From assembly GCF_026151205.1 (NCBI RefSeq), contig NC_087084.1, positions 7,055,394 through 7,119,393 of the forward strand: a stretch of 64,000 bases of DNA, read 5' to 3'. How positions within the stretch are numbered: the first letter of the stretch is position 1; every line of letters begins with the position of its first letter. Shown in pieces: positions 41,120-64,000 of this stretch. Origin of the DNA: Bolinopsis microptera. Its lineage: Eukaryota > Ctenophora > Tentaculata > Lobata > Bolinopsidae. Made by a program: the position numbers and the translations under genes. The notes beneath the pieces were generated by a model that was not told the DNA's origin, did no database searches, and saw nothing but the letters and a program-made list of their open reading frames with translations.

Positions 41120-41992
41120 TATTTTGCTTTCCTGGTTCAAAGTAAGTCAACTAGACCTTTAATAGTCTTAGTACAAGTGATACTTAGTTATCAGTCTAAT
41201 CCAAATGAAAATCCGCGGAACCGAATACAACAAGGAAGCGGTCTATAAGGACCTAATCACGTGACCCCAATAGGCTCACGACTCACGTGACACGACACTT
41301 AACCAAATAAAGCCCCTCAAGGGTGGTGAACCTAATTATCAGGTAAGGAAAACCTAATCCCGAAACTATAAACAATCTCCACAAGATTCCCTAGTAAACA
41401 TTACTTGACAGGCATTTAGTAAGGTAAACACATAATAATCCTGAGATTCCGCTGTTAATATCCTAATTACACGCGAAGTTACACGTCAATACACGAGGGT
41501 ACAACATCTGGTTATAGTATAGGTAAATGATTGATCAGAACAAGTAGAATATCAAATAAAATTACCGACTAATACTTAACGTTCAAATAATGTGTATTTC
41601 TTATCGCTATGTTCTCTGGCACATTACCGCTACAGCATTTATAGTGTGGACTGTGGGACTGTTAAATGTGTGTTGTGGGAGGGTTTAACTTTACAGACGT
41701 TTCCAGTCCTGACCCGCGCAGTGCGTGTCCCCTTCTGACCTGCGCAGTGCGTGTCCCTTCCTGGGCTGCAAAGTGACCACTGGAAAATAGGTGAGGTCGC
41801 AACGTGAAACAAGGTTTAATTAACCTGGTACACTATTAGTCAGTAGAAACCCTGTATGTATACCAAGTAGGCTGTGTCTCATTAGTCAAAGAAAAGCACT
41901 AATACAACTCATTCCAAATATCAAATTAAAGAGACAATAAAACAACCAGAATCTTTATGTAGTCTAGAAGTTTACTACACTACCTGTCCTAT

Positions 41993-43905
41993 TTTAGCGC
42001 GTGAGGCTTGTTGGCTCAGATCCAATGTTATATTCGTTACTTAATGTTAGTTAATGTTATATTCGTTGTTACACAGCTCAGATAATAAGATCAGTTTGTT
42101 TATGTTCCTCAAAAACTGCCAAATAAGTAAAAGAGTTAGCTGGAAGCTTGCATAAACCGCCAGATAAAACATAAATTTATAAGTTATTTTTTATATTAAT
42201 ACAAAATAAAGCTCGGAGGTAATATAAGACAAACGGACGCATCATTATACTGTGTTTGAGGTGTTAGGTCATTGATTTGTTTCGTAATAATATAAGGTTC
42301 TGGAACACACATTAAGTTCTGGAACACACATTAAGTCTCTTCAAAAATTAGTTAGATATTTTTAGACTTAGTTTATAGATATTGATTTCATAACCGACCC
42401 GTTTATTAAATGAATAACAAACGGGTCCCGTTATTAAATAAGTCTCTCTAACGTTAGTTGAACGATAGGTTCTACGAGGGATATCACGCTCTTCACTTTA
42501 CGGCGACAGACTAAAATTTGATTCATCCCCCAATTTGAGATTAAGAATCATTTCGATCGGAATTGTCAAACAATTTTTAATGGTTATCCTATCGTATCAT
42601 ACTTACAGTTACTGTTCATGTTTTATTTGTCGTATGTAGACTTTTTCGCTGATATCGAAATATCGAATTATCATTGAAATAGGTTAATTAAGTAAACTAA
42701 ATCATATGAGTAATAAGCAATCATACGGTGTTATTGCAAAGAACCATGACAAGGGTATCAGACCTATATTAATCTAAGAGACGAAACAAAACGAATCATC
42801 ATACAACAAATTTTAAAATCCTGCGGCACAGGATCCTGTTGTTTTCCTACTCTGCCTCTCCCAAATCTCCTTCTCCTTTCTTCAGGTTTATTCTTCAATT
42901 TTTTAAATTAGATAGCAGATATATTTTCTTTCGAATGTAGTAATGGCATTATACATTATTTGGTATCGTATGTTGTGTTTAGTGTTTGCTAACTAGGTAT
43001 GTGCTATATATTTTGGAGAATTTTGAGGCTCACGACGTCTTGTCCCATGGGTTGAGTTGTAAGCTGAGTATATGTTCAAATCGCCTTACTTCGTATGGTG
43101 AAACATTGGCAGGTTTGCCTTAACCTTTGGGACGAGTGTTTGCCCACCGGGGATCCAAAAATTTGATCACCATGAACATTACTTTGACACGTGAACTTAT
43201 CAAACGACTGTAATGATTCCATTAAATTTTCTTAGTACATTTAGCTAGTTTATAGTAGATACACACGGTCACAGAATAGAAGAGCACAATTGGGCTCCTT
43301 GTTCTGCGACCGTGTTCCCTCGGTGGGCCGACAGGTTTTTGTTGTGTAGTAGTGCTGGGGAAAAACACGCTTTAAATATCAATGAATGTAAATATTGTTA
43401 ATTGACATTAGTGCCACAGTTTATGTGGTAAAACAAATTTATGGTTAAACATTATATTATATCGTAGAAGGGCATGATTTACGCACATCACTAAGCATCT
43501 GGATGGATAATTAGCACACAAGAATAAACTGACCTTTAAACATGACCACCAGCAATATCATATAACCATAGCTCCGAAATAAATAAATTGCTCTACATAG
43601 AAACATCTGGCCTGATCTTATCACATTGTGGTCCCCAGGGGTTCGGTAAAGCCCTTACAGGCAACTGGGTCCTTTTACCAGCCACAATAAAACTAGTCAT
43701 GCCAGTACTGTCATAAACTGTAACCAACTATTTAAAAATAAGATATCTTTTGCTAGAATTTTAAATTTTAAGCCATAGAGCAATCTTCTCAATTTGAAAA
43801 TTTAAAAATAACATTTTACCCTAACTATGATGTGGTGGCATTTCATACTTAACTAAAATTCAACTTTGAAAGTCAATAGATTATTAGTCACAACAAAATT
43901 ATAGT
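41993..43905. other. No gene seen; one hairpin
   Basis: Gene-free AT-rich sequence. At about 43262-43313 ACACGGTCACAGAA is followed, about 25 bases on, by its near-complement TTCTGCGACCGTGT, a potential hairpin, possibly the remnant of a small inverted-repeat element. Short duplication TTCTGGAACACACATTAAGT at 42300. Confidence 0.4.
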
Positions 43906-43909
43906 TTAA

Positions 43910-45308
43910 GGGGGGGGGGTTCACCCTGATTTTTTTGTGAAACTTGGTTTCGAGATAGTAGTTGACCAACAAACTAGGACCAGTGACCAAACTTTTGAGG
44001 GGGTCCCGGACCCCAACCGCCAAACGGTGCCCGCGGGGCAGCCACGCCCATATTTGGTCCAAATCAGGCCCAATTTAGCCAAATACCCTGAACATGCCCA
44101 AAACCCAGATTTTAGGTGCTCTACTTGTAGCTAGTGGTCCCCGGAACTCGTATATGAAGTTTCATCAAGATTGGACAAAAAATGACTGAGTTATGAGCTA
44201 AAAACTATATGCCCATATTTGGGCATACGCACTAAATTTGATCGATTTTGGCCCATAAATTGGTCAAATATCAATATTTTTGAATGAAACTAACTTTATA
44301 TGAAAGGTAAGCCTAAACTACACATTCTCTATGATTATCAGCTCAATATCTACCTAACTGTGTATTCTGTGTTCAAATAATCGCAAAAAATGAACAAAAT
44401 CGCCCATATCTCAGTTCGCGATATTTGCAAAACTGACTTCGCTCAAAACAATAGAACTCAATAGGGTTTCAATATTTTTTCATGAAATTTTCAGAATCAA
44501 CGTAGAATTGTCTCATGACCTTAAGTTTTGGGACAGAATTTTGAGTTAGGCCTTTAAAAAAATTTGGCGGCCAAATTCTGAAAAATGCCCGGCAAATTTT
44601 AGAATTTGGCCAAATTCTAAAATTTGCCGGGCATTTTTCAGAATTTGGCCGCCAAATTTTTTTAAAGGCCTAACTCAAAATTCTGTCCCAAAACTTAAGG
44701 TCATGAGACAATTCTACGTTGATTCTGAAAATTTCATGAAAAAATATTGAAACCCTATTGAGTTCTATTGTTTTGAGCGAAGTCAGTTTTGCAAATATCG
44801 CGAACTGAGATATGGGCGATTTTGTTCATTTTTTGCGATTATTTGAACACAGAATACACAGTTAGGTAGATATTGAGCTGATAATCATAGAGAATGTGTA
44901 GTTTAGGCTTACCTTTCATATAAAGTTAGTTTCATTCAAAAATATTGATATTTGACCAATTTATGGGCCAAAATCGATCAAATTTAGTGCGTATGCCCAA
45001 ATATGGGCATATAGTTTTTAGCTCATAACTCAGTCATTTTTTGTCCAATCTTGATGAAACTTCATATACGAGTTCAGGGGACCACTAGCTACAAGTAGAG
45101 CACCTAAAATCTGGGTTTTGGGCATTTTCAGGGTATTTGGCTAAATTGGGCCTGATTTGGACCAAATATGGGCGTGGCTGCCCCGCGGGCACCGTTAGGC
45201 GGTTGGGGTCCGGGACCCCCTCAAAAGTTTGGTCACTGGTCCTAGTTTGTTGGTCAACTACTATCTCGAAACCAAGTTTCACAAAAAAATCAGGGTGAAC
45301 CCCCCCCC
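43910..45308. mobile_element. 1.4-kb near-perfect palindrome flanked by TTAA
   Basis: Two arms of about 700 bases, almost identical inverted copies, meeting without spacer at GAATTTGG|CCAAATTC (centre between 44608 and 44609). The ends are a G-run then TTCACCCTGA and its complement. TTAA stands on both sides (43906-43909, 45309-45312), the target duplication of piggyBac-type elements. No open frame of interest. Read as a non-autonomous fold-back transposon; terminal G/C runs are unusual for piggyBac ends. Confidence 0.85.
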
Positions 45309-45671
45309 TTAAGACATCCATTTTGCATTGTGTTTCCAATATTAGAATTTATGATATGTATTGATTGAATAATTGGTAATAAATTTAACTTTTGTTTTAT
45401 TAAACTTTTGTTTTATTATCGCCGATATAATTTGTTGTTTCATGTTAAAAATAAAACATTCGTTTTAGAACAAATATTCTCAAGAAATACATCCAACATT
45501 AAATCAGTTAATTATAAACAACAAATATAATCCAAATCTGCAGCTTGCTAACAAACAGAAATTGCACAACCAAATCTCTTACCAAATTACAAATCAACCA
45601 CAAAAAATATGAATCTAGTCCTGTTGTAAAAATCCAAAACTGGATCAAATCCACCACTGAAAATGTCTCCT

Positions 45672-46109
45672 CTACATCAGCACACTCGCCACAACCACTG
45701 AAAAGAAGGTAGCAGCTCCCACCACAACTCTTCCAGCCCCGCTCTCCTCAGCAGACTCCAACGCAGACTTGATAGAAGCGAACTGTTCATCAGTGTACCC
45801 GTCCAGAGACTCCAGACCACTCTCACCTCCCTCTTCAAGTGCTGCTCTGATCTCCTCAATCTGCTCACTTGTAAAATCTCCAGCGCTACTTAAAGCATCC
45901 TTAAAAGCATCAATCTGTTCCTCGGCAAAGGAGCTGAAATCAAACTCGATAAGAAAATCTCCTACGTCACTGACAATGTTACCAAGTCCGTCGCTGACGT
46001 CCCCGAAAGCGTCACCCAGATTACTGGATATGTCCCCGATCACTCCGTCGTCTCCTACAAAACCTTGGATTAGGAGGCATAGGATTGTGAGTGCTTTTAT
46101 TCCGGACAT
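45672..46109 (-). CDS. Secreted, GPI-type acidic protein, GPI-2 (145 aa)
   Basis: Smallest member of the family. Signal peptide MSGIKALTILCLLIQGFVG, then acidic DDGVIGDISSNLGDAFGDV, three helix-like repeats (FDFSSFAEEQIDAFKDAL; DFTSEQIEEIRAALEEG; LDGYTDEQFASIKSALES) and a hydrophobic tail (VVVGAATFFSVVVASVLM) like a GPI signal. The repeats align with those of GPI-1 and GPI-3 (DFxSF, FTxxQ, IxxAL), but sequence identity is low, so this is the older branch. No His/Asp tract. Same strand as both paralogues. Cell-surface protein of unknown role. Confidence 0.8.
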   Translation of the reverse strand: MSGIKALTILCLLIQGFVGDDGVIGDISSNLGDAFGDVSDGLGNIVSDVGDFLIEFDFSSFAEEQIDAFKDALSSAGDFTSEQIEEIRAALEEGGESGLESLDGYTDEQFASIKSALESAEESGAGRVVVGAATFFSVVVASVLM

Positions 46110-46229
46110 CGTGGTTACTTCTCTTCCTGGAGATACTTGGTGGTTAATTTTTGGAGTTGGAGATTTGAGGGAAAAAGGTTTTTACTTAGTTTTTGACAGT
46201 TCACGATCCAAAATTTCAAGCTAATTACA

Positions 46230-48405
46230 ATGGCGCAATTTGATTACAAATCCTTAAAATCTAAAACCACAAATTACAATTTTTAAAAATCGTTCAAAAA
46301 TAAAACGCAGAGAGAAAAATATAAAACGACCAGCTGTTCGATGAGCTGTTGCTATCATCGTGCCACAACGTAACATTAGTGAATGCAAATAAATCGAATC
46401 TTCAACTTATATTGCTTGCTTGCTTGTCAGTAGAACGCAGACATCGATATTATTATTAAGGAAAACATGTATAATGTGTAATTCATAAGAAGGCAAGGGG
46501 GTTACCGTTACTGTGAAGGTGAAATTACTGAATCGGAGACAATTAAGCTTCGCCTGATCGATAAAATATCAAAAGTTATAAAGATCTGTAATTGTCGCCT
46601 GGGCGGGGACCTTGACTGGATTTTTCTCACCGATGGTTCCGCTGTATTTCTGCGGCGAAGGGATAAAGTTTAACATTACAGTTTCTATAATATGTCTGTG
46701 GCCAGTGTCATGGTAATACTTTTCTGCTTGAGAAAATTTAGCAGGTCCATTTCAGCAGCAAGCACTGTTCAAGATGTTCTTGTGTGGTCACGTAATCGTC
46801 AAGTTATACAAGGAAGCAGTCGCAATTATAGGGCCAGTTCTCGTATATTACGTAATATCGTTTAATCCATTTCCTCTGTTCATAATCTAAATCAGTTTTA
46901 GTCATAAAGTCTTATTCTAAGAACATAAAAATGAGAATACTATTTACCTATTTGATACTCATAAAATAATAGTATTACAGGAAAACAGAACCTGGATATA
47001 CATTCTCGTACTGTGAATCCGGCCGGCTTGGTCCCGGATTCATTTTTGAAATCCGGTCAAAATTGGGCAATTCTGAATTCGGTTGGGACAAGTATTTCGT
47101 AAAAACAAAAAATGAATTACTCCTGAAAAACACAACAAACGATAATCAATAGTTCAAAGTCGTGATTTCTAACCATCAAGATAATTCCAAATCAGAAAGC
47201 GAATTACGATTTAGAAATTTTAAATTATGTATTGATCTTCAGACTTCAGTCTATAACAGGACTGAAGAGCAATCTTAATTCTTTCCTGATAAGACATTTT
47301 TCCTTGTCGCATCAAACGGGATCAATACAAATTTACACAAGAATACATGGCAACCATGCGACTCATAAATAATACTCTAATCCGGATTTAACATAATCTT
47401 AATCTAGTTGGACAATTAATTTGTTGTCCAACTTGACCAATAGTTATAATAGTGGTTCTGTAGAATTACGGCTTACTTAATTTCTGCGGTCTCCTGGCCT
47501 GATTAGAATGCGTATTTTGGAATATATTTTTTACTATCTATATTGATGTAATATACAAATAGAAAGGACCGGTTGAGTCAAACAATTGTTTCAATCATGT
47601 AAAACCATGATATCATCAGTGTCAACTGAGGTAGGAACTAAATTATTGTAAGTTCATAGCTAAAAGTTGACATAAATAAGCAGCAGACGACGCCACCCAC
47701 AATTATACATATTAAACTATAGTTATATTGCTATGTTGTGTAAGTCTGTGGAGTAGAAGCGAGAAGGTATCGCATAAATTTTTTATCTGGCGTCGAGTAC
47801 ATTTCGAGCACATAAATATGAACTGATAACACCTTTAAGCTCCCTCGTTCATTGATGAGGAATTGTACAAATCATTATTGATTGTCAATCTGATTCTGCT
47901 GAACATGAGAAGAAATATATTTGTATATATTTTATAATTTATATTCTGTAGAACTCTATTAGTATGGAGAACTTCTAAGCACGTTATGTGAGCTAGGCTG
48001 ATAACACCTAAATAACACCGAAATAACACCTAACACCACCTAACACCACATGAATAACACCACCTAACACCTAAACGCTCCCTTGATTATTGTTATTTAA
48101 GTTTGCTCGAAACTTGATAAACTTGTTCTATATAACTCTAACTTCACTCAGTGCCAGAATCATTTGATTGACGAAGGAAACAGTCAAATGAACGGCTGTT
48201 ATTATGTGTTTCTGAGCAGAGGTTCATTTCAAATTCTTCTCCTGAGGTTGTATAACCATGAGCTGGTTTAATCCTTCTATAGTACTTTTAAAATGTTGAT
48301 AAAACAAAGTGTCGTTTATAAAGCTTGATCAATATATAATGTACAATGTACATTATATACATTTACTAGTCATAAATTGAAAAGTGTTGAGTAATATTTC
48401 ATTGG
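46230..48405. other. No gene seen
   Basis: Searched on both strands; no convincing coding segment, RNA gene or repeat. A short CACCTAA-rich stretch at 48005-48075 is a weak tandem repeat. Confidence 0.4.
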
Positions 48406-49039
48406 CTTAATCAAAAATCTCGGTCCCGGATTATTCCGGGTCCCGGCAGATGTTACCGTTTTTAAACGTTCGATCAACGAAAAGACGGTCTCAACTACTC
48501 AATCAATATTATAGTTGGTGTACAGTGAGAACTGAGAAGATGCACAAAAATAATTTTGCTGGTCAGTTTTTATAACTTTAGTGTTTGTTTCGATATCAAT
48601 ATAAGTTTCGGTTTCAGCTTCAGTTTTGTTTTAATTTCAGTTTCACTAAGATTTTCCGTTCCTGAATAGATTAGTTCAGACTTGATACGAATAAAACAGT
48701 TACGATAGAGTAAACAGGGGAAACAATTAATGAATAAAACTGAATTCTAATCAATATTCGGTATAAAACACGTAATCTATCTGATTTTAAAATTAAAAAT
48801 TCAATTTGAACAATAAAAGCAGCTTGCTAATGCATATCAAAGAACTAAACGTATTCCAAGTTTTCTATGTTGTTTTCAATTATTTAAAATGTTCTGGTTA
48901 TATCATTACATAACGCATATCACTAAAAAGTATATTTCTGAATATATCTACATTTAGGAAATATATAAAAAGTCTATCAGAAATCGACTTTTGAAGAATC
49001 CTTGAAATTCGTGAATTTCCACCATCTGCACTGTCTCTT

Positions 49040-49594
49040 TTACATCATTATGTTCCCTGCTACCACCAAGCCAAGGACAGCCGCACTGACTCCAATCTGA
49101 GGTGAACCTCCGTGATGACCATCATCATGATCATGATCGTCACCATTCCCAGAATCACCGTATACTTGCAGAGTTGTGCCAATTTCCGCCTTTTGTGCAT
49201 CACTAAACCCGGTGAAATCAAAGTTTCCTGTGCTCATCCCCTCTTTGATTTTGTTCAGCTGGTCTTGTGTGAAACTGCTGTCCATGCCTGCCAACGCTGT
49301 GTCGACCTGATTCATCATGTCATTCGAGAAAGAACTGAAATCTATATCCCCAATGTTGTCCATAAGGTCGTTAAAGTCGTCATTGTTGAAGTTGTTAGCA
49401 ATGTCGTTGAAGGCATCCGCGTCAAAGCCGTCGACGTTGTCTTTGATGTTGTCAAAGGCGTCGTTGAAGTTGTCACCAAAGTCGGTGTCTCCAAAGTCTC
49501 CAAAGTCGGTGTCTCCAAAGTCTCCAAAGTCAACACCCATTATTAGGTGTACTAAGCAGACTGTCATGATTACCAATCGCACTGCTGCCATCAT
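49040..49594 (-). CDS. Secreted, GPI-type acidic protein, GPI-3 (184 aa)
   Basis: Close paralogue of GPI-1: signal peptide MMAAVRLVIMTVCLVHLIMG, a short tandem repeat of DFGDTDFGDFG, then NDAFDNIKDNVDG and the shared core (DIDFSSFSNDMM; FTQDQLNKIKEGM; DFTGFSDAQKAEI), a very short His/Asp segment (DDHDHDDGHHGG) and the hydrophobic C-terminus IGVSAAVLGLVVAGNIMM. The two proteins are therefore the same molecule with and without the His/Asp expansion. The 5' flank continues the segmental duplication for only about 160 bases before the inserted element, so promoter sequence may have been displaced. Confidence 0.85.
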   Translation of the reverse strand: MMAAVRLVIMTVCLVHLIMGVDFGDFGDTDFGDFGDTDFGDNFNDAFDNIKDNVDGFDADAFNDIANNFNNDDFNDLMDNIGDIDFSSFSNDMMNQVDTALAGMDSSFTQDQLNKIKEGMSTGNFDFTGFSDAQKAEIGTTLQVYGDSGNGDDHDHDDGHHGGSPQIGVSAAVLGLVVAGNIMM

Positions 49595-49754
49595 GTTGCT
49601 TGCCTGGTTAGTAAATGATTGATTAGAACAAGTAGAATATCAAATAAAATTACAGACTAATACTTAAAGTGAATAATTTGTACTTCTAATCGCTTTTTAA
49701 AGGTTCTCTACCGCTACGGCCCACACCATGTTGTTATTAAATATATAATGTATA

Positions 49755-51799
49755 GATGTGGATACTGGCGGGGAGGTGATAATTGTTTGTTTACATTAAT
49801 AGTGAGCACATGTTAAGCAGGCTGAGGAGGTGATAATTGTTTGTTTACATTTTAGGTCGAGCACATGTTAAGCAGGCTGATGAGGTGATACATATTTTGT
49901 ATTATAGAAGGCTTGTAACGCCTTCTTGTTACCCCCCTTTGAGGGCCCCGAATTATTTTCTGAACGAAAGCTCAAAAATAACCGAGAAATCGACCTTCTT
50001 ATTAACTCATTTTGATGACCGTTTCTAACCTAAAATTAGGGTTAGGGTTAGGGTTAGGGTTAGGGTTAGGGTTAGGGTTAGGGTTAGGGTTAGAGTTAGG
50101 GTTAATCTAAATGTCTAAATTGGGTTCAGTTGTCCGGTAGCCCGCTCTTGCGAGTTGACATTCTAAGCTTTCTGGTCTTTTCTTGCCTTCTTTGAGCTGT
50201 CAAAGAGCCATGAGACCAAGTAGACGTTTTCGTGATAAACTGTAAAACCTCTCCATATCGGGCCTCTCACGGGAGAAACGAGAAGTGTACGGTATAGAAC
50301 GTTTCATATACCTCATTAAGGGCCATAATATAATATACACGTGTTGAATTGTGTCGTATTGTGATTGAATCTAGTTCGATATGTATTACTACTTAGTTTA
50401 CATCACCCACCAAATGCGATATGAACAACTCGGTTTGATTGTTGAGGAAAAGAAGAGGTCTGGTAATACAGGTAGGCCGGTTTAGATTAGCACAATTGAC
50501 GGTACAGAGAGGTTTAATTTATTACAAATGTGATTATCTTAACCCCACTGATTCATCATTGAAATCAATAAAATGACAGTACAGCAGGCTATTGTTTCGA
50601 TCTTGACTGTACCATTGGTGCAGTTTCTGTGAAAATCGATAAGGCTGTATTATATTGTAATTAGTTATGAAACTCTTATATCGCGATCGTATGGTTAAAC
50701 TTAACGTTTTTCAGTTTCAGACCTTTCCACTTAGAGTTAGTAATTCCTGATTATTACTAAAATCTGCCGAAATTTACTGAACTCCAACTACAAATATTGG
50801 TGATTTAAGTATTCTTGAAACGAAAAATTGACTAAGTTTTTTTTGAAAATCATTTTTCTCCGTGTTTCATGCAATTTGATCACTTTTGGCGGAAAAAATA
50901 TTTTGAATTTTCGAAATTTTTCGAAGTCTCGAAAAAAAATTGTGACTGAAAAGTTTTCAAATCTTTTCTAAAAACTACTTTTTTCCGTGTTTTAAGCTAT
51001 TCCGATCATTTTTAGCCAATAAAAATTTTTTAGAATTTTGCTAATTGGTTAATTGATATATCGTGCTATATCGTGCTCTGCTCTGAAAATTGTGATAGAA
51101 CCTGTTCGAGTTGTTAATGAGACGATCTCCTTGTTCTTTCGTTGCAGAATCAACATGTTCTTTGTTTGAGTAACACAACAATTTTGAGGAATAAGGAAGC
51201 GTTATTGGGCTGTAAAACCAACTTAAATCGATTTCTCGTGCAGCGTTGTACAGGTGAGGAACAGTCACCAAAATGAGTTGCTTACCTGCTGTGTTTTGTC
51301 GTACTCTGCTCTTCGCTCAAGTTCGATCAGTTAAGGTGAGGATTGCCTCGATCTTTCGGTTTCAGCCCTAGGTCAAGAGCTGTAGAACCGAAGGATCAAA
51401 ATATAATATGTTTCTTGTTGCTCGCATTCTAAACTATAAAACATCGATTTTGAGGGATAAGGAAGTGTTTATAGGTTCTGAAACCTAGCTCAATCGATTT
51501 TTCGTGCAATTTTAGGTCAGAAACGGTCATCAAAATGAGTTAATAAGAAGGTCGATTTCTCGGTTATTTTTGAACTTTCGTTCAGAAAATAATTCGGGGC
51601 CCTCAAAGGGGGGTAACAAGAAGGCGTTACAAGTGTTACAAGCCTTCTATAATACAAAATATGTATCACCTCATCAGCCTGCTTAACATGTGCTCGACCT
51701 AAAATGTAAACAAACAATTATCACCTCCTCAGCCTGCTTAACATGTGCTCACTATTAATGTAAACAAACAATTATCACCTCCCCGCCAGTATCCACATC
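49755..51799. mobile_element. 2.0-kb TA-flanked element with 280-bp inverted repeats
   Basis: Begins GATGTGGATACTGGCGGGGA and ends with the complement, both sides bounded by TA (49753-49754, 51800-51801). The terminal inverted repeats are about 280 bases and contain an internal direct duplication (AGGTGATAATTGTTTGTTTACAT twice). The matching peptide frames in each arm are shadows of this. The interior is AT-rich, non-coding, with an imperfect internal tandem duplication (50820-51030). The duplicated locus near 41640 lacks it, giving an empty-site comparison. Confidence 0.88.
50035..50104 (+). repeat. Interstitial telomeric repeat (TTAGGG)n
   Basis: About eleven head-to-tail TTAGGG units with one variant (TTAGAG), exactly at the inner edge of the left inverted repeat of the element at 49755. 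Confidence 0.97.
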
Positions 51800-52074
51800 T
51801 ATTATATTCCAGTATTAAATGTGTGTAGTAGGCTGCTGGGCTTGACCCGCGAAGCGAACCCTGGAAAATAGTCAAGGTCGCAACGTGAAACTAGGTTTAA
51901 TTAACCTGGTATAGTATTAGTCAGTAGCAACCTTGTTTACCATGTACACTGTGTCTCATTTGTCAAAGAAAAGCACTAATACAACTCATTCCAAATATCA
52001 AATTAAAGAGACAAGAAACAACCAGAATCTTTATGTAGTCTAGGATTTTACTACACTACATGTCCAACTTAGTG

Positions 52075-52335
52075 GTTACTGTGATTACTGTGGTTACTAC
52101 GGTTACTGCGGTTACTGCGGTTAAAACTTTGGTAAGCAATAGTAGGTTTTAAAATTACATACTTATGGAGCTCGTATATTTTAAAGTTACATCAGGTCAC
52201 ACTAAAAGCACACTAAAAGTACACCAAACACTAACAGCACACTAACAGCACACTAACAGCACACCAAAAGCACACCAAAAGCACACCAAAAGCACACCGA
52301 AAGCACACCGAAAGCACACTAAACGCACGCAAGAA
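52075..52335. repeat. Two short minisatellites
   Basis: 52075-52125: units of GGTTACTGC/GGTTACTGT. 52203-52325: about eleven copies of AGCACACCAAA or AGCACACTAAC type units. Non-coding. Confidence 0.8.
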
Positions 52336-52774
52336 GCACAGATAAACTCGGTGTAAACTATTCGGATATCTCTAGTAGTTCATACAGAACATTCCAACAA
52401 CACACTGAATAGTTTGAACACGAAAACTGCAGGGGAATTAGTGAACACTGCGATCAGATTAGAACTATGTCACCTTCATTTCAAGGACCAGATTGTCAAC
52501 GAGACCTGATTACAAGTACGAGTATTACGTGATCGGTTTTATTGTCAAAAATTATGATTTTATTTTGATTTAAAGCCCAGAAAAAGCCTGGATCAATCCT
52601 GCTAAGGCTTAAATTTGAACACGTCATAGAAGATTAATACATAAGTAGTAGTAGCTAAAGCTTGGCCTCTCAATAGTTCCTTAAACAATGTTAAATAATA
52701 GAGTATGGACTAATCAAGAACATTTGATAACGACAAAGCCGACAAACCAAAACACTACAACAGGTCGGCGAAGG

Positions 52775-52866
52775 ACGAATATACATGTCCCCGACGAATG
52801 TACATGTCCCCGACGAATGTACATGTCCCCGACGAATGTACAATGTACATTGTACATGTCCCCGAC
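52775..52866. repeat. 19-bp repeat CATGTCCCCGACGAATGTA
   Basis: Four to five copies, the last with an inverted GTACAATGTACATTGTACAT stretch. The open frames over it are repeat artefacts. Confidence 0.85.
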
Positions 52867-52929
52867 CAAGTTGAGACTCATTATCTCGCAACTGAAGTTT
52901 GATAACCAACTGAAGCTGGCTCGATAACG

Positions 52930-54480
52930 CTAAATATCTGAATATAATAGTCCGCCTCTAATGAACACTGATACATTCTCCTGATGATATACCATAAACT
53001 CTGCCATTAAAGCATTAAGCTCACGATGTGGTCTCTACACTCCTCAATTACAAGCTAGCAGTTATAGTCAGACATGACGTACTAGTGTACTGTATACATC
53101 ATGTGTACTGTATACGTCATGTCTGAGATCTCTCGTTGCGACTATATTATCAGCTGGCTGTTTATTTCCAGTCTTACAATTAGAACGAAACAGTTAGTTG
53201 GAATTTGGTAAGGTCAATGAGTAATTTGGGCAACGGTGTATTACAAATTTCCCTGAAAAATTAAAATGTCTAGATCGATTAATTTCCACATCGTCCCCGA
53301 GATATCCTAACCACAAAATTCAACTTCAAGGTTGCACTTCATTCAACTGCTGTTACAACAATCGAAGGTACCGCAGGTACAGTTGTGCCTCATAGGGGCC
53401 GGAGAGCCGCTGGTATGTGGTATGTGGGAGGGGATACACAAAAGAAATGATCGAGCAAAGAATGAGCTTTGAGATTTATACATTTACCCCGGAAGTACGT
53501 TCCTACAAATGTGATCCATATTTCCAGACTTTCGTAATGATTAGGCTAAAAAACATCGTTTCTGGCTCAGTCTATTATTGGAAGAGTGACCTCATCACTG
53601 TATCACTTACTCGGATATCACCCTCTATAGTCGGGAAGCATCCCGTACCGTCTATTTGCGGTCTGATACCGTACTATTTCATGGAATCGCTAAATACTTC
53701 CTATTCTCCTGATCACGAATAGTTTTCCGAAGAACCAATCAGCTTTCAGCATTGACTAATAAAAACAGCTATCACTGTCACGTGTTGAAACTAACATGCC
53801 CCCCCCCCCCCCCCCCCTCCACTGGTATGTAGATCTATACCGTTTTATGGACTAGCTACTGACTAATTGTAATAAGCCTTTAAACATTTATTACCGCTAG
53901 TTTCAGTCATAAATGCCGTCTAAACATACTGCTCAGCTTAGTCATACAATCCATGATGTGCGTTATTTACGATCAGTGATCACGCACATCATTGCACGAA
54001 TTTTAAAATAAAGCTTATCAAGAAGAAGAAAGTGTGCTAAAGTGAGTTATTATATGCATGAAAATGGATATATCACGAAGGAACTAAAAGGAATGATGCA
54101 GACAAGAAAATTATATGGATGAAAATAGTGCTCAGCTAAGTAAATGTGTTAAAGTAAGTCATTATATCGACATTACTGCATGATAATAGATATGTGGACG
54201 AAAATAAGAAATTGGATGAAATAAGGATTTGCTAACTGTATGAGCGTTGCATTTAAGAACGAATTTCAAAATTTATTCGAAATGATATGTAAGATTGTCA
54301 TTGGAAGCCCGATTCAACTATACTTATGGTTATATCATACTAACTCGTAATTCAGTGCATCTCAGGGGTGTAGGAAGCGGGTGGGGGGGGGGGCTATTAT
54401 GAGTTGAAAATATTTTTTCGGATTTCTGAAGTCCGTACCTTATACATTCGGAAGGCTGTGGATGTGATTGGTTTCATATA
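52930..54480. other. No gene seen; poly-C tract
   Basis: A 101-codon frame at 53417-53722 has no features of a known protein. A C-run of about 19 bases lies at 53799-53817 and a G-run at 54380-54390. Confidence 0.4.
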
Positions 54481-54544
54481 CTTGTAGCTTTATAGAAAAC
54501 GTGATATTTGGCCCGCAAATTTGAAGGAAAATAGGCGAATTTGG

Positions 54545-54665
54545 TCTTCAGATTTAAAGGAAAATGCGGTATTTGTCGCGGAGAACTGAAAAATCGCGAT
54601 TTGTCGCGAGGCCAGGATCTGAAAAAATCGCGATTTGTCGCGGCAAACGTGAAAAATCGCGATTC
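54545..54665. repeat. AAATCGCGATTTGTCGCG repeat
   Basis: Three spaced copies of an element including the palindrome AATCGCGATT followed by TGTCGCG. Function unknown. Confidence 0.7.
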
Positions 54666-54849
54666 CGCACATGCCGCAATTTCCTTTTGTCTTTGCCCCA
54701 AAATCTTTTTGGAGAAGTGCCAAAAAGTTCAGGCTGTAGCGCAAAGCGCCAAAAAATATTTCGAAAATCATTCCTACATCCCTGACCCCTGGTGCACTTG
54801 CAGCTTCGTGAATGGCCAGCACGCAAACGCGTGGATTCTACCCTAAACT

Positions 54850-55660
54850 TAAAAGCAACGATAAATATTTGAGACGAAATAATAATAATCTTTTTAATAG
54901 TGATAATCTTTTTAATAGTGATGATCCAGCGCTTATAACTAAGAAGTTTTGGTCACATGTTAAGTATAAATCTAACTCCTGCCGTATTCCTAATTGTGTT
55001 AGTTATTCTGGACAGCTTCGGTTCAAACCCAAAGATCAAGCTGAACTTTTCAATTCTTTCTTTTATAACCAGTTTTCGGATCCTTCACTTTATGACACTG
55101 ACATCTCCTATGTCAATGATTTTGATATTGACTTCGATCATCGGGATGTTCGTAAGCTTCTTTCAAATATTAATTCAAATAAAGCCCAGGGACCAGATGG
55201 CATACACGGTAAAATTCTAAAAAATTGGATAGTGAAACAACAGCCTAGCCTAGTCTCTTTGCTCCCCATACTATTATTATTTTTGTTTTATTAATTTTTC
55301 TCTACCTTCCTATACTTTCAACATCATATCACACTTCACCCGCACACCTTCTCACACATTAATGACCATATCAGACCTGTATCTAATGTATCTGGAATTT
55401 GACGTATTAAAATACCAATTTTGACTATATATCCACAGTTATTCACCATGGATTTGTTTGTTATTAAATAGTTTTTCATAAACTTTTGGATTTAGATTAA
55501 TTCGATGTAATGGGTCCAACTTACTGCGGACATAGTTCACTATGTGTTTACCGTGTTTGGGTGCCCATCATATTTTACAGATGGGGGCGATATTTTGAAC
55601 GATTCTATTTTATATTCATCTATTGCTGTACTCTGTAAAATTTGAAAAGTATTTAATAAA
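54850..55660 (+). mobile_element. LINE relic with internal deletion
   Basis: The frame from about 54812 encodes the linker between endonuclease and RT of a CR1/L2-like LINE: ITKKFWSHVKYKS, FKPKDQAELFNSFFYNQF and NSNKAQGPDGIHGKILKN (the N-KA.GPDGI RT block 0 motif). It then jumps to non-coding sequence resembling a LINE 3' end and finishes at AAAAGTATTTAATAAAATAA near 55660. The reverse transcriptase core is missing. Inactive. Confidence 0.75.
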
Positions 55661-56825
55661 ATAACCAGCTAAACGCATGAGCTGTGTTATGTCTGTGTGT
55701 ACTGCATGATGAGTGCTCTCTATAAGTATACAGGGGATGTAACGACTAATTTCGGCAAAATGTTACTTACAAGTATAAAAGTAATATTGATGAAGTATTA
55801 TTTAACAAACTCAAGGATGCAAAGAAGGAAATGTCAGTCTTGTGGGTTGAAGGAGCTATTTAAGGTTTACATTATATTACCCTACGCTATTTAGAAAGAT
55901 CCCACCAACACTGTCGCACGTCCAGATAGACGGCAGATCGGCAGATAATCTGCAAGGAAATGTTGGAGGAAAATTTGGAGCTAAAGAGACAATTTTTAGA
56001 AAACGTGACCTTTTTAGGCATAAGATCATTTTTAGGGAGTAAAATTGATCTGCAAGGAATCTCTGGATGTGGGAACACTGTCTACAAAGACTAACGAAAT
56101 TTAAAGAATGTTTAAAAAATAAAACTTTTCAGTAACCGCACGAGGGTGTGTGTTTATTCTAGAACAATTCTCCAGACTGTGTAGGCTAACGATGTGGTGA
56201 TTTAATTGAACCATGTCTGCAGTGTTATATTCAGCTGGTGTCTGCACTCGAATATAAACGGTAGTGAAATTCTCAGGACAATGAAAACACCCTCCTTATA
56301 ACGGTATACACTTACAAAGGATAAGCAAAACGCAGAGTAGTGCTACAAAGATGTAACGTATAGCAACGATATTGTGAGCACAGCTGCACTGTAGCTACAT
56401 TGTGCAGTTCTTGTCCGGGACCAGCTTCCAGTGAAGTTACCACTTGTGAAAGTTCCACAAACAAATCAACCAGAAACTTGGATATCAACTTCTAGTGGTG
56501 TGGATATCAGAGTGTTTCACATTGTTAACCTCCGCAAGTATTGCTGAGGCCCGTGGGGAGGGGTATAATAATTCAACAAATAAAATGTCCCGTTTATTAG
56601 AAACTTGGTTTACGTGCCAGTACTGCAGTGCATGGTCAATTCAGCAATGCTTGCGGAGGCAATCTGATAATCTATAAACATTACATTAGTTTTGACTTTA
56701 AAGCGTTCATCGTGTCTTACACTGTTTACTAAGATAAGAGCTACCTCCAATAAAACAAGCTGTGACGCTCAAAGTAAGGAACTTAATGTGGTACACATTC
56801 CACCAGCAATTATAAATATTCACCA
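55661..56825. other. No gene seen
   Basis: AT-rich, no recognised coding or RNA gene. Confidence 0.4.
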
Positions 56826-56828
56826 GAC

Positions 56829-57116
56829 ACCACGTGTATACCACGTGTATACCACGTGTATACCACGTGTTTACCACGTGTTTACCACGTGTTTACCACG
56901 TGTTTACCACGTGTTTACCACTTGTATACCACGTGTTTACCACGTGTTTACCACGTGTATACCACGTGTATACCACGTGTTTACCACGTGTTTACCACGT
57001 GTTTACCACGTGTATACCACGTGTTTACCACGTGTTTACCACGTGTATACCACGTGTTTACCACGTGTTTACCATGTGTTTACCACGTGTTTACCACGTG
57101 TTTACCACGTGTTTAC
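56829..57116. repeat. 11-bp minisatellite, CACGTG in nearly every unit
   Basis: About 26 head-to-tail copies of ACCACGTGTTT/ACCACGTGTAT. Almost every unit holds the perfect E-box palindrome CACGTG at 11-bp spacing, about one helical turn. One unit reads CACTTG and one CATGTG. The three overlapping open frames are artefacts. Confidence 0.95.
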
Positions 57117-57784
57117 TGTTTATGTTATACTCCAGGTAATATAAACTGCTGCATCACTTATGAGATGGGACAACATATTCACTACTAAGGAGCACTAACA
57201 TTATCAGTGATTATGCACTAGCATCGTGCACAAATATCACAATGCACATGTAGGTAACATATTGTGATTACACACCACTTACCAGTCACTGGTAACCAAT
57301 GCAAAAATAGTGCATTCCTGTACTGAGCCCATTTCAAACAAATCAAAATAAATTTTTAAAGACTGCTATTGCAGTAAATTTCATATAGAGGTAATGTAAA
57401 CTTAGTCACTGGAATGACGAGGAATATCAAATGTTTTAAATTCTTTAAATTCTTTGCACCCGATGCGTGATCTCCGTGATTACGAGAAATACCGATTTAG
57501 CAAATAACAATGACCAATTAATAACAATGACCATCCATTAAACCGATTACCAGAAACTTCTGCAGAGCCTGAAAATTGCAGATCATCTGCCTGTTTGCAG
57601 GATATCTATTAATGCTTTTCATAAAAAGTTACAACTATCATATCTATTTGAGTATTTTCTACTTGAATAAATTTCGAAAATCAGAGTTTGGTAAGGACTA
57701 TTTCTACTCTTATAGAAGTCTGGTGAGATTCACGAAATGGTGAAAAGTCTGAACAATAATGTGTATTAATCATTTTCATACATA
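57117..57784. other. No gene seen
   Basis: AT-rich spacer between the E-box array and the palindromic element. Confidence 0.4.
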
Positions 57785-59109
57785 GTCCAGTCATTTACGG
57801 ACATTTTTGGGCTAGTACCTGCAAATTTTCAGATACCCACGAAACTTTGCACAGACCTTCCCAAAGGTATGATAAAACGATTTTCGGTTGGAGACATTTT
57901 TTTTACTTTGGGCAAAACCCAGGAGGGCCACGCCCATATTGACCCAATAACGTAACTGACCCCTTGCTTCTGAAGGTCGTAGAGACTTCAAAATAGGCTT
58001 AAACGAAGCCGCATATGCATGTTTATATAAGAGTTATTGATCAACACATTGCCTAAAATCCTTACTTTTCGAGAAATTCGCCAAAAACCATTTTGGGCGT
58101 GGCGCTGAGCCGATTTTACTAACTTTTGATAGGATTGTGATAGAGTCTTTGGATAGAGTGCAAAAGAACTGCAATTGGCATATTTATATATGACTTACGA
58201 AGAAACATATGCCTTAAAGTGCTTACTTTTTCAGTTATTGGCGAAAAACTGATTTTCAGTTCCAGAAATCATGCAAAAATATGGGTATGTGGTACATTGG
58301 GCTATGAAGGCCTTAGAGATTTTTGAATGAGTGCAAATTGTGCAGAATGGCCATGTTTATATACAACTTATGAAGCAACATGCACCCTAAAATGCTTACT
58401 TTTCGAGTTATTTGGGGGAAAAACAGAGAAAATTTGCACAAAATAGAGCAAAATTGGTTATATCAGCCATTTTTGCCTCCCGTTCTATGTTAATAACTCG
58501 AAAAGTAAGCATTTTAGGGTGCATGTTGCTTCATAAGTTGTATATAAACATGGCCATTCTGCACAATTTGCACTTATTCAAAAATCTCTAGGGCCTTCAT
58601 AGCCCAATTTACCACATACCCATATTTTTGCATGATTTCTGGAACCGAAAATCAGTTTTTCGCCAATAACTGAAAAAGTAAGCACTTTAAGGCATATGTT
58701 TCTTCGTAAGTCATATATAAATATGCCAATTGCAGTTCTTTTGCACTCTATCCAAAGACTCTATCACAATCCTATCAAAAGTTAGTAAAATCGGCTCAGC
58801 GCCACGCCCAAAATGGTTTTTGGCGAATTTCTCGAAAAGTAAGGATTTTAGGCAATGTGTTGATCAATAACTCTTATATAAACATGCATATGCGGCTTCG
58901 TTTAAGCCTATTTTGAAGTCTCTACGACCTTCAGAAGCAAGGGGTCAGTTACGTTATTGGGTCAATATGGGCGTGGCCCTCCTGGGTTTTGCCCAAAGTA
59001 AAAAAAATGTCTCCAACCGAAAATCGTTTATTCATACCTTTGGGAAGGTCTGTGCAAAGTTTCGTGGGTATCTGAAAATTTGCAGGCACATGTCCATAAA
59101 TGACTGGAC
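57785..59109. mobile_element. 1.3-kb palindromic element flanked by TA
   Basis: Inverted arms of about 620 bases (57785-58412 and 58492-59109) with a spacer of about 80 bases. The ends are GTCCAGTCATTTACGGACAT and its near-complement, flanked by TA (57783-57784, 59110-59111). Arms are nearly identical. No coding potential; internal phrases such as TTCGAGTTATTGG recur. A non-autonomous fold-back element, unrelated in sequence to the one at 43910. Confidence 0.85.
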
Positions 59110-59111
59110 TA

Positions 59112-59480
59112 ACAAAGTTACAACGTGTTCTTCATGTTATGTATCCTGGGTTTGGACAGGATATGACCCGTTTAAAATATTTCCATCACGTTACATTACA
59201 TAATTTTCAATAAATGTAATAGATTTGTAGTGTTGTAATTAGTTTAATTATCGCATTTTTAATATTATTCATTTGGGTGACAGTGTGAGTAGTCATTTAA
59301 TTATCAGGGGAGATTGGTCTCCAGTATATCCAGCACTGGGAAAATTAATTTAACTCAGCCGTGCTCTTCCGCGGCTGTTTGCAGGAATTAACATTGTAGG
59401 TTTATAACCTACCAGGACGCGCGCCGAGTTGGACTCGTCGACGGTCCTGTTTGGAACAAATATTTTACGAGTATCACTCG
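59112..59480. repeat. Dispersed repeat, composite copy
   Basis: The first 145 bases match the insertion in zinc-finger copy A (611-755); the last 90 (59390-59480) match in reverse complement the GC-rich repeat at 17800-17950. This suggests a longer mobile element of which both others are fragments. No coding potential seen. Confidence 0.65.
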
Positions 59481-60839
59481 TTAAGAATTAACAATGACCA
59501 AATTGACCGTGCAGTCACCTGCATTAAAAATGTTTTTCACTTATGTGGTTATAAATAACGATGGGACCGCGATTATACCTGTTAGATCACGATTTTAGTG
59601 CTTGACTGATCAAAGATCTCATGAAACATTCTCTAGTCTACTGAATACAGATATTCCTTCAGTTGATTTCACAAATTCCACAGAATATTACTATTCAGTC
59701 ACAAATAAGATTTAAAAAAAGTTTTTTCCTCTTCACCAGTTCACCCGATCAATTTATCTCATTCCTCGGAACATATACGCAACGAAGGAGGTCTTGAATA
59801 TAATATAGGTACTACAGGAAATAACACAAGATTCAATAATAAAGTTTTTCCATAACATTTAAAAAGGTTCTAACTTCCTACGTTTGAAAGAAATGAAGTT
59901 AAAATTTCAATGCAATCTAAGCAACTGAACTGTAAAACGTGAGTTAGTAATACTAAATACACACAGCAGCTACTGCAAGTGAAACTGTAAATAATGATCA
60001 TTAATTCTAATTGTCATAAATTAATGATTATGCAATCAATAAATAACAAATATTCGCTTGGCTTACATTCCCCAGTGTTCAGAGTAACAACCGGACCACA
60101 ACATCTTCATTTAACAATACAACAAACAGTGATTACCGGTTCTGTTTAATGGTAAATAGGAGCACGTGACATGACCAACACGTGACCAATAGGTGACCAA
60201 CACGTGACCAACACGTGACCAATAGGTGACCAACACGTGACCAACACGTGACCAATAGGTACTCCTTGACTGTCACAAATACTGCTAATTAACACATTCA
60301 AGCAACCGCTAAACATGACTATCATGAAATATGGTCACATACTCTATTGATTACGTGACGCGTTACGTATCTAGCTGGGACAGTGACAGTGTTATGACAC
60401 TTGACAGTGTTATGAGCAACACACTGCTTCAACAAATCTACACAAAGCTAACAAAACGGTGGCCCTACAACAGTGTGGTCATTGCAGATGGTGATTTGTG
60501 TAGCTTATCATTAGGGCGGGACACAAATTCCAATCCTCTCTGACTAGACTAAAGACAGTGCAGCATAACAATATCCATGGAACTCTGATTACAACTCAAT
60601 TCATTCATTCATTCATTCATTTGATCTTGTCTACCGACGATATAACCAATTTGTCCCTTTACATTGTAGCGTATTACGAACTTATAGGTGTTATATTATT
60701 CCAGATATACACCATATGATGTATTATTTCTAATCATTTCTCGTCTATCATTACTCACATAACGCTCTCTTATTATTAGCTAAATTAGTATTTAAATCGG
60801 TCTAAAAATTACAAATACATCTTATTTAACACGATTAAA
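59481..60839. other. No gene; small tandem repeats
   Basis: 60165-60262 holds about nine units alternating GTGACCAACAC and GTGACCAATAG; 60602-60621 is (ATTC)5. No CAPN7 exon was recognised here. Confidence 0.6.
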
Positions 60840-60849
60840 CATGAATAAA

Positions 60850-61005
60850 CATAATTTAGCATGATTTAACATAATTTAACATAATTTAACATAATTTAAC
60901 ATAATTTAACATAATTTAACATAATTTAACATAATTTAACATAATTTAACATAATTTAACATAATTTAACATAATTTAACATAATTTAACATAATTTAAC
61001 ATAAT
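60850..61005. repeat. 10-bp minisatellite (ATAATTTAAC)n
   Basis: About 15 near-perfect copies ending 20 bases before the acceptor of the first visible CAPN7 exon. Confidence 0.95.
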
Positions 61006-61026
61006 TAACACGTGTATTTCCCGCAG

Positions 61027-64000
61027 AAAGCGCTGAATTTTGACGTTATGTCCGCGATAGAGTACGATAACGGAGTATTCTGGATCAGCTGGGAGATCTG
61101 CCTACACTTCTTCGATGTGGTGTATCTCAACTGGAACCCCAAACTGTTCCTTTACAGGTTATTTACACTTTTACAGGTTATTTTCAGGTTTACATGTTCT
61201 ACTTTCAGATTGTATGTATTTCTCGTAGAACAGGAATGATAGGAAGGTGGCTGATTTTTTAAACCTCAGATTTTTGTGTCTATAAACACTTTTAAGTCTA
61301 TAAACACTTTTGTCAGAAAACGGCAGTATTATGTAACGAACATTTAAAATTAAATAACAACCTGTCACAGATACAATCTGCACGCAGACTGGGCTGCAGG
61401 TCCCTGAAACTGTTGCTCATTATATCACCTAATAATGTATAATGTACAATGTATAATGTGCAATGTATAATGTACAATATATAATGTGCAATGTATAATG
61501 TATAATGTACAATGTATAATGTACAAAGTATAATGCATAACCTCCCACAGATACAATCTTCACGCAGACTTGGCTGCAGGTCTCCGAAACTGTTGCTCAT
61601 ATCACCTAATTATGTATAATGTACAATGTATAATGTGCAATTTATAATGTACAATGTATAATGTATAATGTACAATGCATAATGTATAACCTCCCACTGA
61701 TACAATCTTCACGCAGACTGGGCTGCAGGTCTCCGAAACTGTTGCTCATATCTCCTAATTATGTATAATGTACAATGTATAATGTACAATGTATAATGTA
61801 CAATGTATAATGTACACTGTATAATTTACAATGTATAATGTATAACCTGCCACAGATACAATCTTCACGCAGACTGGGCTGCAGGTCTCCGAAACTGTTG
61901 CTCATATCACCTAATTATGTATAATGTACAATGTGTAATGTATAATGTACAATGTATAATGTACAATGTATAATGTATAACCTGCCACAGATACAATCTT
62001 CACGCAGACTGGGCTGTAGGTATCCGAAACTGTTGCTCATATCACCTAATTATGTATAATGTATAATGTGCAATGTATAATGTAGAATGTATAATGTACA
62101 ATGTATAATGCATAACATCCCATAGATACAATCTTCACGCAGACTGGGCTGCAGGTCTCCGAAACTGTTGCTCATATCACCTAATAATGTATAATGTACA
62201 ATGTATAATGTACAATGTATAATGTACAATGTATAATGTACAATGTATATTAATGTATAACCTGCCACAGATACAATCTTCACGCAGACTGGGCTGGAGG
62301 TCTCCGAAACTGTTGCTCATATCACCTAATAATGTATAATGTACAATGTATAATATACAATGTATAATGTACAATGTATAATGTACAATGTATAATGTAT
62401 AATGTATAATGAACAATGTATAATGTACAATGTATAATGTACAATGTATAATGTACAGTATACAATGTATAATGTATAATGTACAATTTATAATGTATAA
62501 TGTACAATGTATAATGTATAACCTCCCACAGATACAATCTGCACGCAGACTGGGCTGCAGGTCAGGGCCCCAAGAAGGACCACTACAATCTGGAGTACAA
62601 CCCTCAGTACAAACTAGACGTGTTGGAGGCTAAGAAACCCTGCACTATGTGGATATTGCTGAGCAGGTGAGGTGATGACGTCACTTTAGGGGTGTGTGAC
62701 GTCACGTGAGAGAGACTGAGAATGTGTGACGTCACGTGAGAGAGACTGAGAATGTGTGACGTCACGTGAGAGAGACTGAGAATGTGTGACGTCACGTGAG
62801 AGAGACTGAGAATGTGTGACGTCACGTGAGAGAGACTGAGAATGTGTGACGTCACGTGAGAGACTGATAATGTGTGACGTCACGTGAGAGACTGATAATG
62901 TGTGATGTCACGAGATAGGGACTGAGAATGTGTGACGTCACGTGAGAGAGACTGAGAATGTGTGACGTCACGTTAGGGGCGTGAGACGTCACGTGAGAGA
63001 GACTGAGAATGTGTGACGTCACGTGAGAGAGACTGAGAATGTGTGACGTCACGTGAGAGAGACTGAGAATGTGTGACGTCACGTGAGAGAGACTGAGAAT
63101 GTGTGACGTCACGTGAGAGAGACTGAGAATGTGTGACGTCACGTGAGAGAGACTGCGAATGTGTGACGTCACGTGAGAGAGACTGGGAATGTGTGACGTC
63201 ACGTGAGAGAGACTGAGAATGTGTGACGTCACGTGAGAGAGACTGCGAATGTGTGACGTCACGTGAGAGAGACTGAGAATGTGTGACGTCACGTGAGAGA
63301 GACTGAGAATGTGTGACGTCACGTGAGAGAGACTGCGAATGTGTGACGTCACGTGAGAGGGACTGAGAATGTGTGACGTCACGTGAGAGAGACTGAGAAT
63401 GTGTGACGTCACGTGAGAGAGACTGAGAATGTGTGACGTCACGTGAGAGAGACTGAGAATGTGTGACGTCACGTGAGAGAGACTGAGAATGTGTGACGTC
63501 ACGTGAGAGAGACTGAAAATGTGTGACGTCACGTGAGAGAGACTGAGAATGTGTGACGTCACGTGATTTAGCCGTATTTCTTCCACAAAAGTAGTTCTGT
63601 ATTAATTAACGTTCCTCTTCCAGGCATATAACAGAGAAAGACGATTTCGCGAACAACAAAGAATTCATCACTCTACACGTTTATAAAACCAACGGAGACA
63701 GGGTCTACTATCCTGATGACGCTTTACTTAGTGGTTAGTATTTTATTGATTACATACCAATCTTTATAAAGAGGAAACTCTAAAATCATCAAATTCTTAA
63801 AAATTCACCCAACCCAAGTTTTTTCGGTAGAACTACTACTACCGCAATTACCCGCAATATCCCGACCCACGTTCAACAAGTTCTCTAAACCTCTAAACCT
63901 CTAAACCAACAAGTTCTCTAAACCTCTAAACCTCCTCAGGTACGAAGATAAACTCGCCCCACTATTTAGCCCGTATAAACGCAGGAGCCGGTTCAAGTAC
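61027..64000 (+). CDS. CAPN7: CAPN7 (calpain-7), four internal exons, runs off the window
   Basis: Exons, phase-consistent with GT-AG borders: 61027-61157 (LNFDVMSAIEYDNGVFWISW, FDVVYLNWNPKLF), 62532-62666 (YNLHADWAAGQGPKKDHYNL, NPQYKLDV, WILLSR), 63624-63733 (HITEKDDFANNKEFITLHVY, RVYYPDD), 63940-64000 (TKINSPHYLARI, continuing). These cover the end of the protease core and the first C2-like/beta-sandwich domain of calpain-7, a cysteine protease that binds ESCRT-III proteins. The catalytic Cys/His/Asn exons are not visible upstream in this window, so the preceding intron is long or the locus is rearranged. Introns 1 and 2 are packed with tandem repeats. Confidence 0.92.
61355..62520 (+). repeat. 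Tandem array of copied exon starts in CAPN7 intron
   Basis: Seven copies (near 61371, 61553, 61697, 61855, 61990, 62125, 62272) of acceptor plus first bases of the next exon: CCACAG|ATACAATCT.CACGCAGACTGGGCTGCAG, followed by GTCTCCGAAACTGTTGCTCAT, each separated by ATAATGTAcaATGTAT-type repeats of varying length. The true exon at 62532 begins with the same 32 bases. Period about 135-165 bases. Several copies keep AG and GT and so could be recognised as 29-nt exons; one has lost the AG (CCCACTG). Confidence 0.95.
62693..63565 (+). repeat. 30-bp minisatellite with CRE and E-box in each unit
   Basis: About 29 copies of a 30-bp unit GTGTGACGTCACGTGAGAGA + GACTGAGAAT. Each holds TGACGTCA (perfect CRE/ATF site) overlapping CACGTG (E-box). 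It fills the CAPN7 intron between exons at 62666 and 63624. Variants: a few shortened units near 62860-62900 and 62970. The long minus-strand open frame is an artefact of a 30-bp period. Confidence 0.97.

Follow-up and report, generated by a model that had tools for sequence, protein, structure and literature searches.

A probable mirage-type minisatellite of exon-edge copies in a calpain-7 intron of the ctenophore Bolinopsis microptera

Minisatellite-like tandem duplications of an intron-exon boundary have been described in amphioxus under the name of mirages, with the AG/GT kept in many, not all, of the copies (PMC3087553). Regular splicing of the affected genes was observed by RT-PCR, and the globin gene BflGb6 carried 6 units on one haplotype and 3 on the other (PMC3087553). 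Mirages were reported in Adh3, in the globins BflGb6 and BflGb9 and in troponin C, and PGBD5 has been compared with them (PMC3087553, PMC3902484). Human genes within segmental duplications harbor internal tandem repeats at exon-intron boundaries, and the copy number of these repeats differs between paralogs; they may be retained in transcripts or spliced out, may form new introns, and have RNA support (PMC2812944). The Rogers model, as cited in both reports, attributes intron gain to duplicated AG/GT proto-splice sites (PMC3087553, PMC2812944).

We analyzed a 64,000-nucleotide stretch of B. microptera DNA, hereafter the window, which contains exons of a calpain-7 (CAPN7) gene near its 3' end (Table 1). 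We observed that the intron at 61158-62531 holds seven copies of a block that joins the acceptor to the initial 32 nt of exon b, all of them ahead of the real exon at 62532. By its sequence the array appears to match the mirage type known from amphioxus. The amphioxus mirages and the ctenophore arrays, those of other genes described below included, are tandem repeats of an exon-intron boundary, of acceptor or donor type, and in the amphioxus mirages as in the CAPN7 array AG/GT is incompletely kept. They differ in that the host is a ctenophore and not a cephalochordate, that the CAPN7 spacer repeat recurs at many sites of the genome, that up to 51 extra copies occur in one sampled ctenophore intron, and that the ctenophore arrays are known from DNA alone. 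Like the human boundary repeats, the CAPN7 array is a minisatellite in a duplicated gene with a copy-number difference between paralogs, whereas the human repeats have RNA support and the evidence for CAPN7 is genomic. With the Rogers model the array shares a tandem duplication across splice-competent sequence, the head of exon b including CAGGT; unlike in that model, no new intron is present in CAPN7, and the intron is common to both paralogs.

Table 1. Positions of the features described. Coordinates are those of the window unless a contig is given.
Feature	Position	Strand	Remarks
CAPN7 exon a (KALNFD...LFLYR)	61027..61157	+	tblastn with human CAPN7, translation; donor GT 61158
Short donor repeat (TTTACAGGTTATTT), exon a end of 7-8 nt with its donor	61151..61190	+	two in tandem here, three in paralog
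Decoy 1, acceptor plus head (head 61371-61402)	61359..61402	+	identical to paralog decoy save for an 8-nt insertion in paralog
Decoy 2 (head 61551-61582)	61539..61582	+	acceptor at 63rd percentile
Decoy 3 (head 61700-61731)	61688..61731	+	acceptor AG lost (CTG)
Decoy 4 (head 61856-61887)	61844..61887	+	preceding spacer has the variant seen before the paralog's real exon
Decoy 5 (head 61991-62022)	61979..62022	+	sole decoy GT inside reference range (12th percentile)
Decoy 6 (head 62126-62157)	62114..62157	+	weak acceptor (12th percentile)
Decoy 7 (head 62271-62302)	62259..62302	+	acceptor at 44th percentile
Spacers between and after decoys	61432..62521	+	7/14-bp repeat (ATGTATAATGTACA)n, at many other genome places
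Real exon b (YNLHADWAAGQGPKKD...ILLSR)	62532..62666	+	tblastn, translation; donor GT 62667
CAPN7 exon c (HITEKDDFANNKEFI...)	63624..63733	+	tblastn
CAPN7 exon d	63940..64000, to 64051 in adjoining locus L004	+	crosses window end
Inverted duplication	39696..64000, on to at least 71603	+	versus G000:C13:~6949522-6993144, minus; 83-99% piecewise identity
L042, kinesin, donor type	G000:C12:14427800-14430900	minus	51 extra copies of exon end plus donor
L053, kinesin, donor type	G000:C2:16577500-16580200		7 extra copies ~53 bp apart
L037, kinesin, acceptor type	G000:C2:6085400-6087700		6 extra copies 49 bp apart
L031, kinesin, acceptor type	G000:C12:14832900-14837200		one copy, then minisatellite
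L040 and L058, kinesin, donor type			one extra donor copy each

The original prediction had described a module of splice acceptor plus the first 32 bases of the downstream exon, repeated seven times before that exon, with an upstream donor at 61157, and each of these points was borne out. Exon a ends at 61157 with its GT at 61158, and the exon heads of the seven units span 61371-62302. As in a mirage, every unit joined some 12 nt from the intron end to 32 nt of exon sequence, and point variants were present. The intron-end part has the consensus AACCTSCCACAG, from which copies 1, 3 and 6 deviate. A 29-nt head (consensus ATACAATCTKCACGCAGACTKGGCTGNAG) was followed by GTC, or by GTA in one copy. 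It had also been claimed that most copies keep both splice dinucleotides, and we found the GT in all seven and the AG in six, CTG standing in its place in the copy at 61700. Beyond the shared block, the decoys have a common tail, GAAACTGTTGCTCAT..., that exon b does not have, and the order within a unit is intron end, exon head, tail, and then a stretch of (ATGTATAATGTACA)n. The start-to-start distance was uneven (135-261 bp) because the spacer varies. A search of the window with a 16-nt core of the head, allowing up to 3 mismatches, returned 8 matches against 0.12 expected, a number reached in 0 of 100 dinucleotide shuffles. The six inner copies have CTTCACG and the tail CTCATATCNCC, and copy 1 has CTGCACG and CTCATTATATCACC, as does the decoy of the paralog; the inner copies are homogenised and the boundary copy is excluded, as in mirages. 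When one unit was compared with the genome, 10 of the 121 matches listed spanned the head, all of them here or in the paralog, and the other 111 were to the spacer.

We consider it very probable that the array is a mirage minisatellite, a tolerated by-product of duplication whose decoys are ignored by splicing. A tandem duplication would have spanned the intron-exon boundary of exon b and left the upstream duplicate within the intron, where it would therefore escape selection acting on the protein. The duplicate and the (ATGTATA)n spacer would then jointly change in copy number by unequal exchange or slippage, to seven copies here and one in the paralog. Splicing would use the outermost site, which adjoins the full exon, and would skip decoys that mostly have neither a credible donor of their own nor the remainder of the exon. 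We infer this duplication mechanism, and the reading frame and the amphioxus precedent suggest that splicing past the decoys is normal. No regulatory role is needed to account for the array.

The strength of the decoy splice sites was assessed against introns called in this genome, 43 in number, of which 2 were dropped for a low score and 41 kept; the calls were made partly by consensus score, so this reference is biased to strong sites. Against the 41 reference acceptors, the acceptors of decoys 1 to 7 fell at percentiles 59, 63, 7 (AG lost), 44, 44, 12 and 44, and that of real exon b at the 61st. Since five of the seven score like real acceptors, some use of the decoys is possible. As for the GT at +29, six of the seven decoys scored lower than every one of the 41 reference donors and the remaining decoy reached the 12th percentile, the corresponding GT inside real exon b being at the 32nd. 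Even the best GT anywhere in the six weak-donor units was below all 41.

A poison exon is a cassette whose inclusion gives a stop. The original prediction held that the 29-nt pieces could act as poison exons or acceptor decoys, with copy number tuning CAPN7 output. On that reading, use of a decoy would lead to a frameshift or stop and less mRNA. The predicted break in the frame was confirmed by translation: single inclusion of any 29-nt piece produced a stop in exon b (7/7), as a poison exon would, and so did any decoy acceptor joined to the exon b donor (7/7), although one tested combination of three pieces left the frame open. The retained AGs and the ordinary acceptor scores noted above also agree with a trap function. 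The donors do not, for by their scores the 29-nt pieces, in six of seven, have no adequate donor to pair with the acceptor around a functional cassette. Neither does conservation: minority letters made up 3.9% of the acceptor-plus-head columns and 2.0% of the next 14 columns across the seven decoys, and columns no less variable than their neighbors therefore give no hint of selection on the decoys. The 29-nt AG...GT layout was also absent from the other arrays of this kind that we examined. Finally, the genome has a single set of protease-domain exons, which lies in line with the paralog rather than with the window copy, and tuning of calpain-7 output by this array is therefore doubtful. A regulatory reading of the array is thus hypothetical, and it is unlikely where it concerns the 29-nt exons.

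The gene was located by tblastn with a human CAPN7 sequence. The window exons encode C-terminal domains of calpain-7, and their best match among solved structures was human calpain-7 (2qfe, E 1.5e-12). In a genome search, the protease-domain exons (residues ~259-501) had one match each, at 7005773-7027150 on the minus strand and aligned with the paralog; the remaining calpain matches in the same search had at most 44% identity. The N-terminal residues 1-258 were sought by tblastn in fetched pieces only, with 7030001-7055393 left out. Given a single set of protease exons in line with the paralog, the window copy is a 3'-partial duplicate in this assembly, and we rejected the idea that it is a full calpain-7.

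The inverted copy of the same CAPN7 exons lies 154 kb away (~C13:6949540-6962278, minus strand). On the window side, the homologous region extends from 39696 to 71603, about 32 kb, and is gapped, with rearranged pieces. Collinearity is incomplete: pieces at ~64621-69089 are reversed in the paralog, the paralog piece matching window 50040-51058 is displaced, and 54799-60011 has two matches. Across five exons, we counted 10 synonymous and 0 nonsynonymous differences between the copies (pS 0.081), and 125 nt of a sixth exon showed no difference. By this measure both copies look constrained, and a decaying pseudogene in the window was rejected, gene conversion left aside, on the same counts over 202 codons, their probability being ~1e-7 if both copies were free and ~3e-9 if one was.

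Within the 39696-49753 part of the duplication, pieces of about 84% identity stand beside pieces of 99%, a pattern that gene conversion might leave, and the minus strand has small Asp-rich open reading frames at 40373-41146, 45672-46181 and 49040-49639. An interstitial TTAGGG telomere-like repeat of 11.5 copies lies at 50036-50104.

The number of decoys was 7 in the window copy and 1 in the inverted paralog, a comparison of paralogs and not of haplotypes. The single decoy of the paralog corresponds to window copy 1 across acceptor and head, apart from its 8-nt insertion, and has the same flank. The spacer ahead of the paralog's real exon carries a variant seen a single time in the window copy, ahead of decoy 4; this fits contraction from a longer array as well as growth from one unit. 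We also compared the two gene copies at the eight edges of four introns. Besides the acceptor of exon b, the exon e acceptor occurs twice in the window copy (in L004) and once in the paralog, the exon d donor occurs twice in the paralog and once in the window copy, and the short repeat at the donor of exon a differs by one copy. No edge copy was found within its own intron at the other four of the eight edges. In the paralog (L003, minus, ~6300-6120), a displaced copy of the exon b end with donor and minisatellite lies upstream of exon a.

The assembly itself might also have produced such a picture, if the array were mis-assembled or if the window copy and the paralog were misplaced haplotypes of one locus. 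Contig C11 holds two inverted pairs such as unpurged haplotypes might produce, one of kinesin matches separated by 38 kb and one of myosin matches separated by 153 kb. Against this, the window contains no N, a pS of 8% was judged high for alleles, no match at E 1e-15 was seen beyond ~39696 in a further 3.7 kb on the paralog side, and each protease exon was found once. We regard an artefact as improbable, to about the same degree as a poison-exon function; if the two copies belonged to one locus as haplotypes, its alleles would differ by 1 versus 7 decoys and the array would still be a mirage. Least probable of all, and largely refuted, is that a retroelement with an (ATGTATA)n 3' tail inserted here and left the first decoy as its target-site duplication, for although the paralog's order of decoy, tail, (ATGTATA)n and real exon resembles an insertion between repeated targets and L031 shows the same order with another minisatellite, that repeat is a different one, the 13 other (ATGTATA)n places share repeat tracts only (printed flanks, dust-filtered blastn), the decoy tail pattern at zero mismatch occurs at 8 places that are all in the array or the paralog, and no dispersed filler element was found.

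We also searched for copies of exon edges in other genes of this genome. Profile matches listed numbered 222 (73 myosin, 109 kinesin and 40 SNF2), and 154 of them (38, 87 and 29, respectively) were scanned in 35 loci fetched for exon density. The scanned items are match segments and not strictly distinct exons; part of the scan extended the matches by 15 nt on each side and the other part did not. Eleven of the 154 were flagged, of which six were counted and five set aside. Two of the latter belonged to a duplicated myosin exon pair in L026; those in L028 and L055 were judged to be intronic repeats on inspection, and that in L025 was judged so from its stops and place only. Exon-edge copies were thus present in 6 of 154 scanned matches (3.9%, 95% interval 1.4-8.3% assuming independent matches). 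All six cases were kinesin (6/87 versus 0/67 for myosin and SNF2, Fisher p 0.036), and the genome-wide rate is uncertain because CAPN7 is the only non-kinesin gene seen with such arrays.

Both boundary types were affected, the acceptor in CAPN7, L037 and L031 and the donor in L042, L053, L040 and L058. The L042 intron (810-2628 of the reverse complement) consists mostly of tandem copies 32-36 bp apart, 49 of the 51 extra copies being exact over 22 nt. Fifty of its 52 donors are an identical TTG/GTAAGT, at the 63rd percentile; the first donor leaves the frame open into the next exon, and the other 51 lead to a stop. The 8 donors of L053 have similar scores, at the 32nd percentile, and six of the seven decoy extensions run into a stop, whereas the first stays open but shifts the frame. 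All 7 acceptors of L037 are identical, at the 85th percentile. The decoys of these three kinesin arrays are not weak copies of splice sites. If splicing of these genes is normal, it would have to choose by exon context or by pairing across the exon, and classic experiments with duplicated splice sites are reported to agree with this.

Among the 41 sampled introns, an edge copy scoring at least 13 was present at two of the donors and at none of the acceptors, with two further donors, at 12 and 11, uncounted. The 16 tandem arrays in these introns lay nearer a splice site than under random placement (mean quantile 0.325, one-sided p 0.008), and the p value was 0.046 when L042 and the L031 donor array were removed. 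A preference of tandem arrays for the proximity of splice sites in the sampled introns is suggestive only.

We propose tentatively, at somewhat less than even likelihood, that ctenophore genes have a standing class of exon-edge satellites, which turns over quickly and arises preferentially at splice junctions. If so, introns would hold up to dozens of full-strength duplicate splice sites that are rejected for missing the rest of the exon, a large natural test of exon context over splice-site identity. In the literature we searched, which lacks most subscription journals, mirages were described only in amphioxus and we found no report of exon-edge mirages in ctenophores; CAPN7 and the 6 of 154 ctenophore matches suggest that mirages are no cephalochordate oddity. 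The accessible part of one paper from the ctenophore search (PMC12221973) has neither the term 'minisatellite' nor 'tandem repeat'. The arrays offer a natural setting in which to study the selection of one splice site from many equal ones, and might provide material for intron gain and copy-number variation within genes. The larger kinesin arrays of this ctenophore are of more interest than the CAPN7 array.

Several other repeats and duplications were observed. At 62693-63566, in a CAPN7 intron, a 30-bp repeat occurs in about 29 copies, compared with about two in the paralog intron, and contains the 12-mer TGACGTCACGTG 27 times; we take this 12-mer to be CRE-like plus E-box-like. The inverted kinesin pair on C11 is at G000:C11:11303567(-)/11341653(+), with equal scores, and the inverted myosin pair is at C11:12116292(-)/11963502(+), with 100.1 and 96.2 bits; both resemble the CAPN7 pair and are either real inverted duplications or unpurged haplotypes. 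The ctenophore photoprotein berovin had 61 matches in the genome, most at 85-90% identity, which marks the genome as that of a ctenophore. Berovin/mnemiopsin-like genes form tandem clusters at G000:C5:17012652-17026413, C13:11082373-11094352, C1:21999334-22006938 and C3:3415412-3427375, in which the spacing is mostly ~0.94-1.03 kb and many scores are identical.
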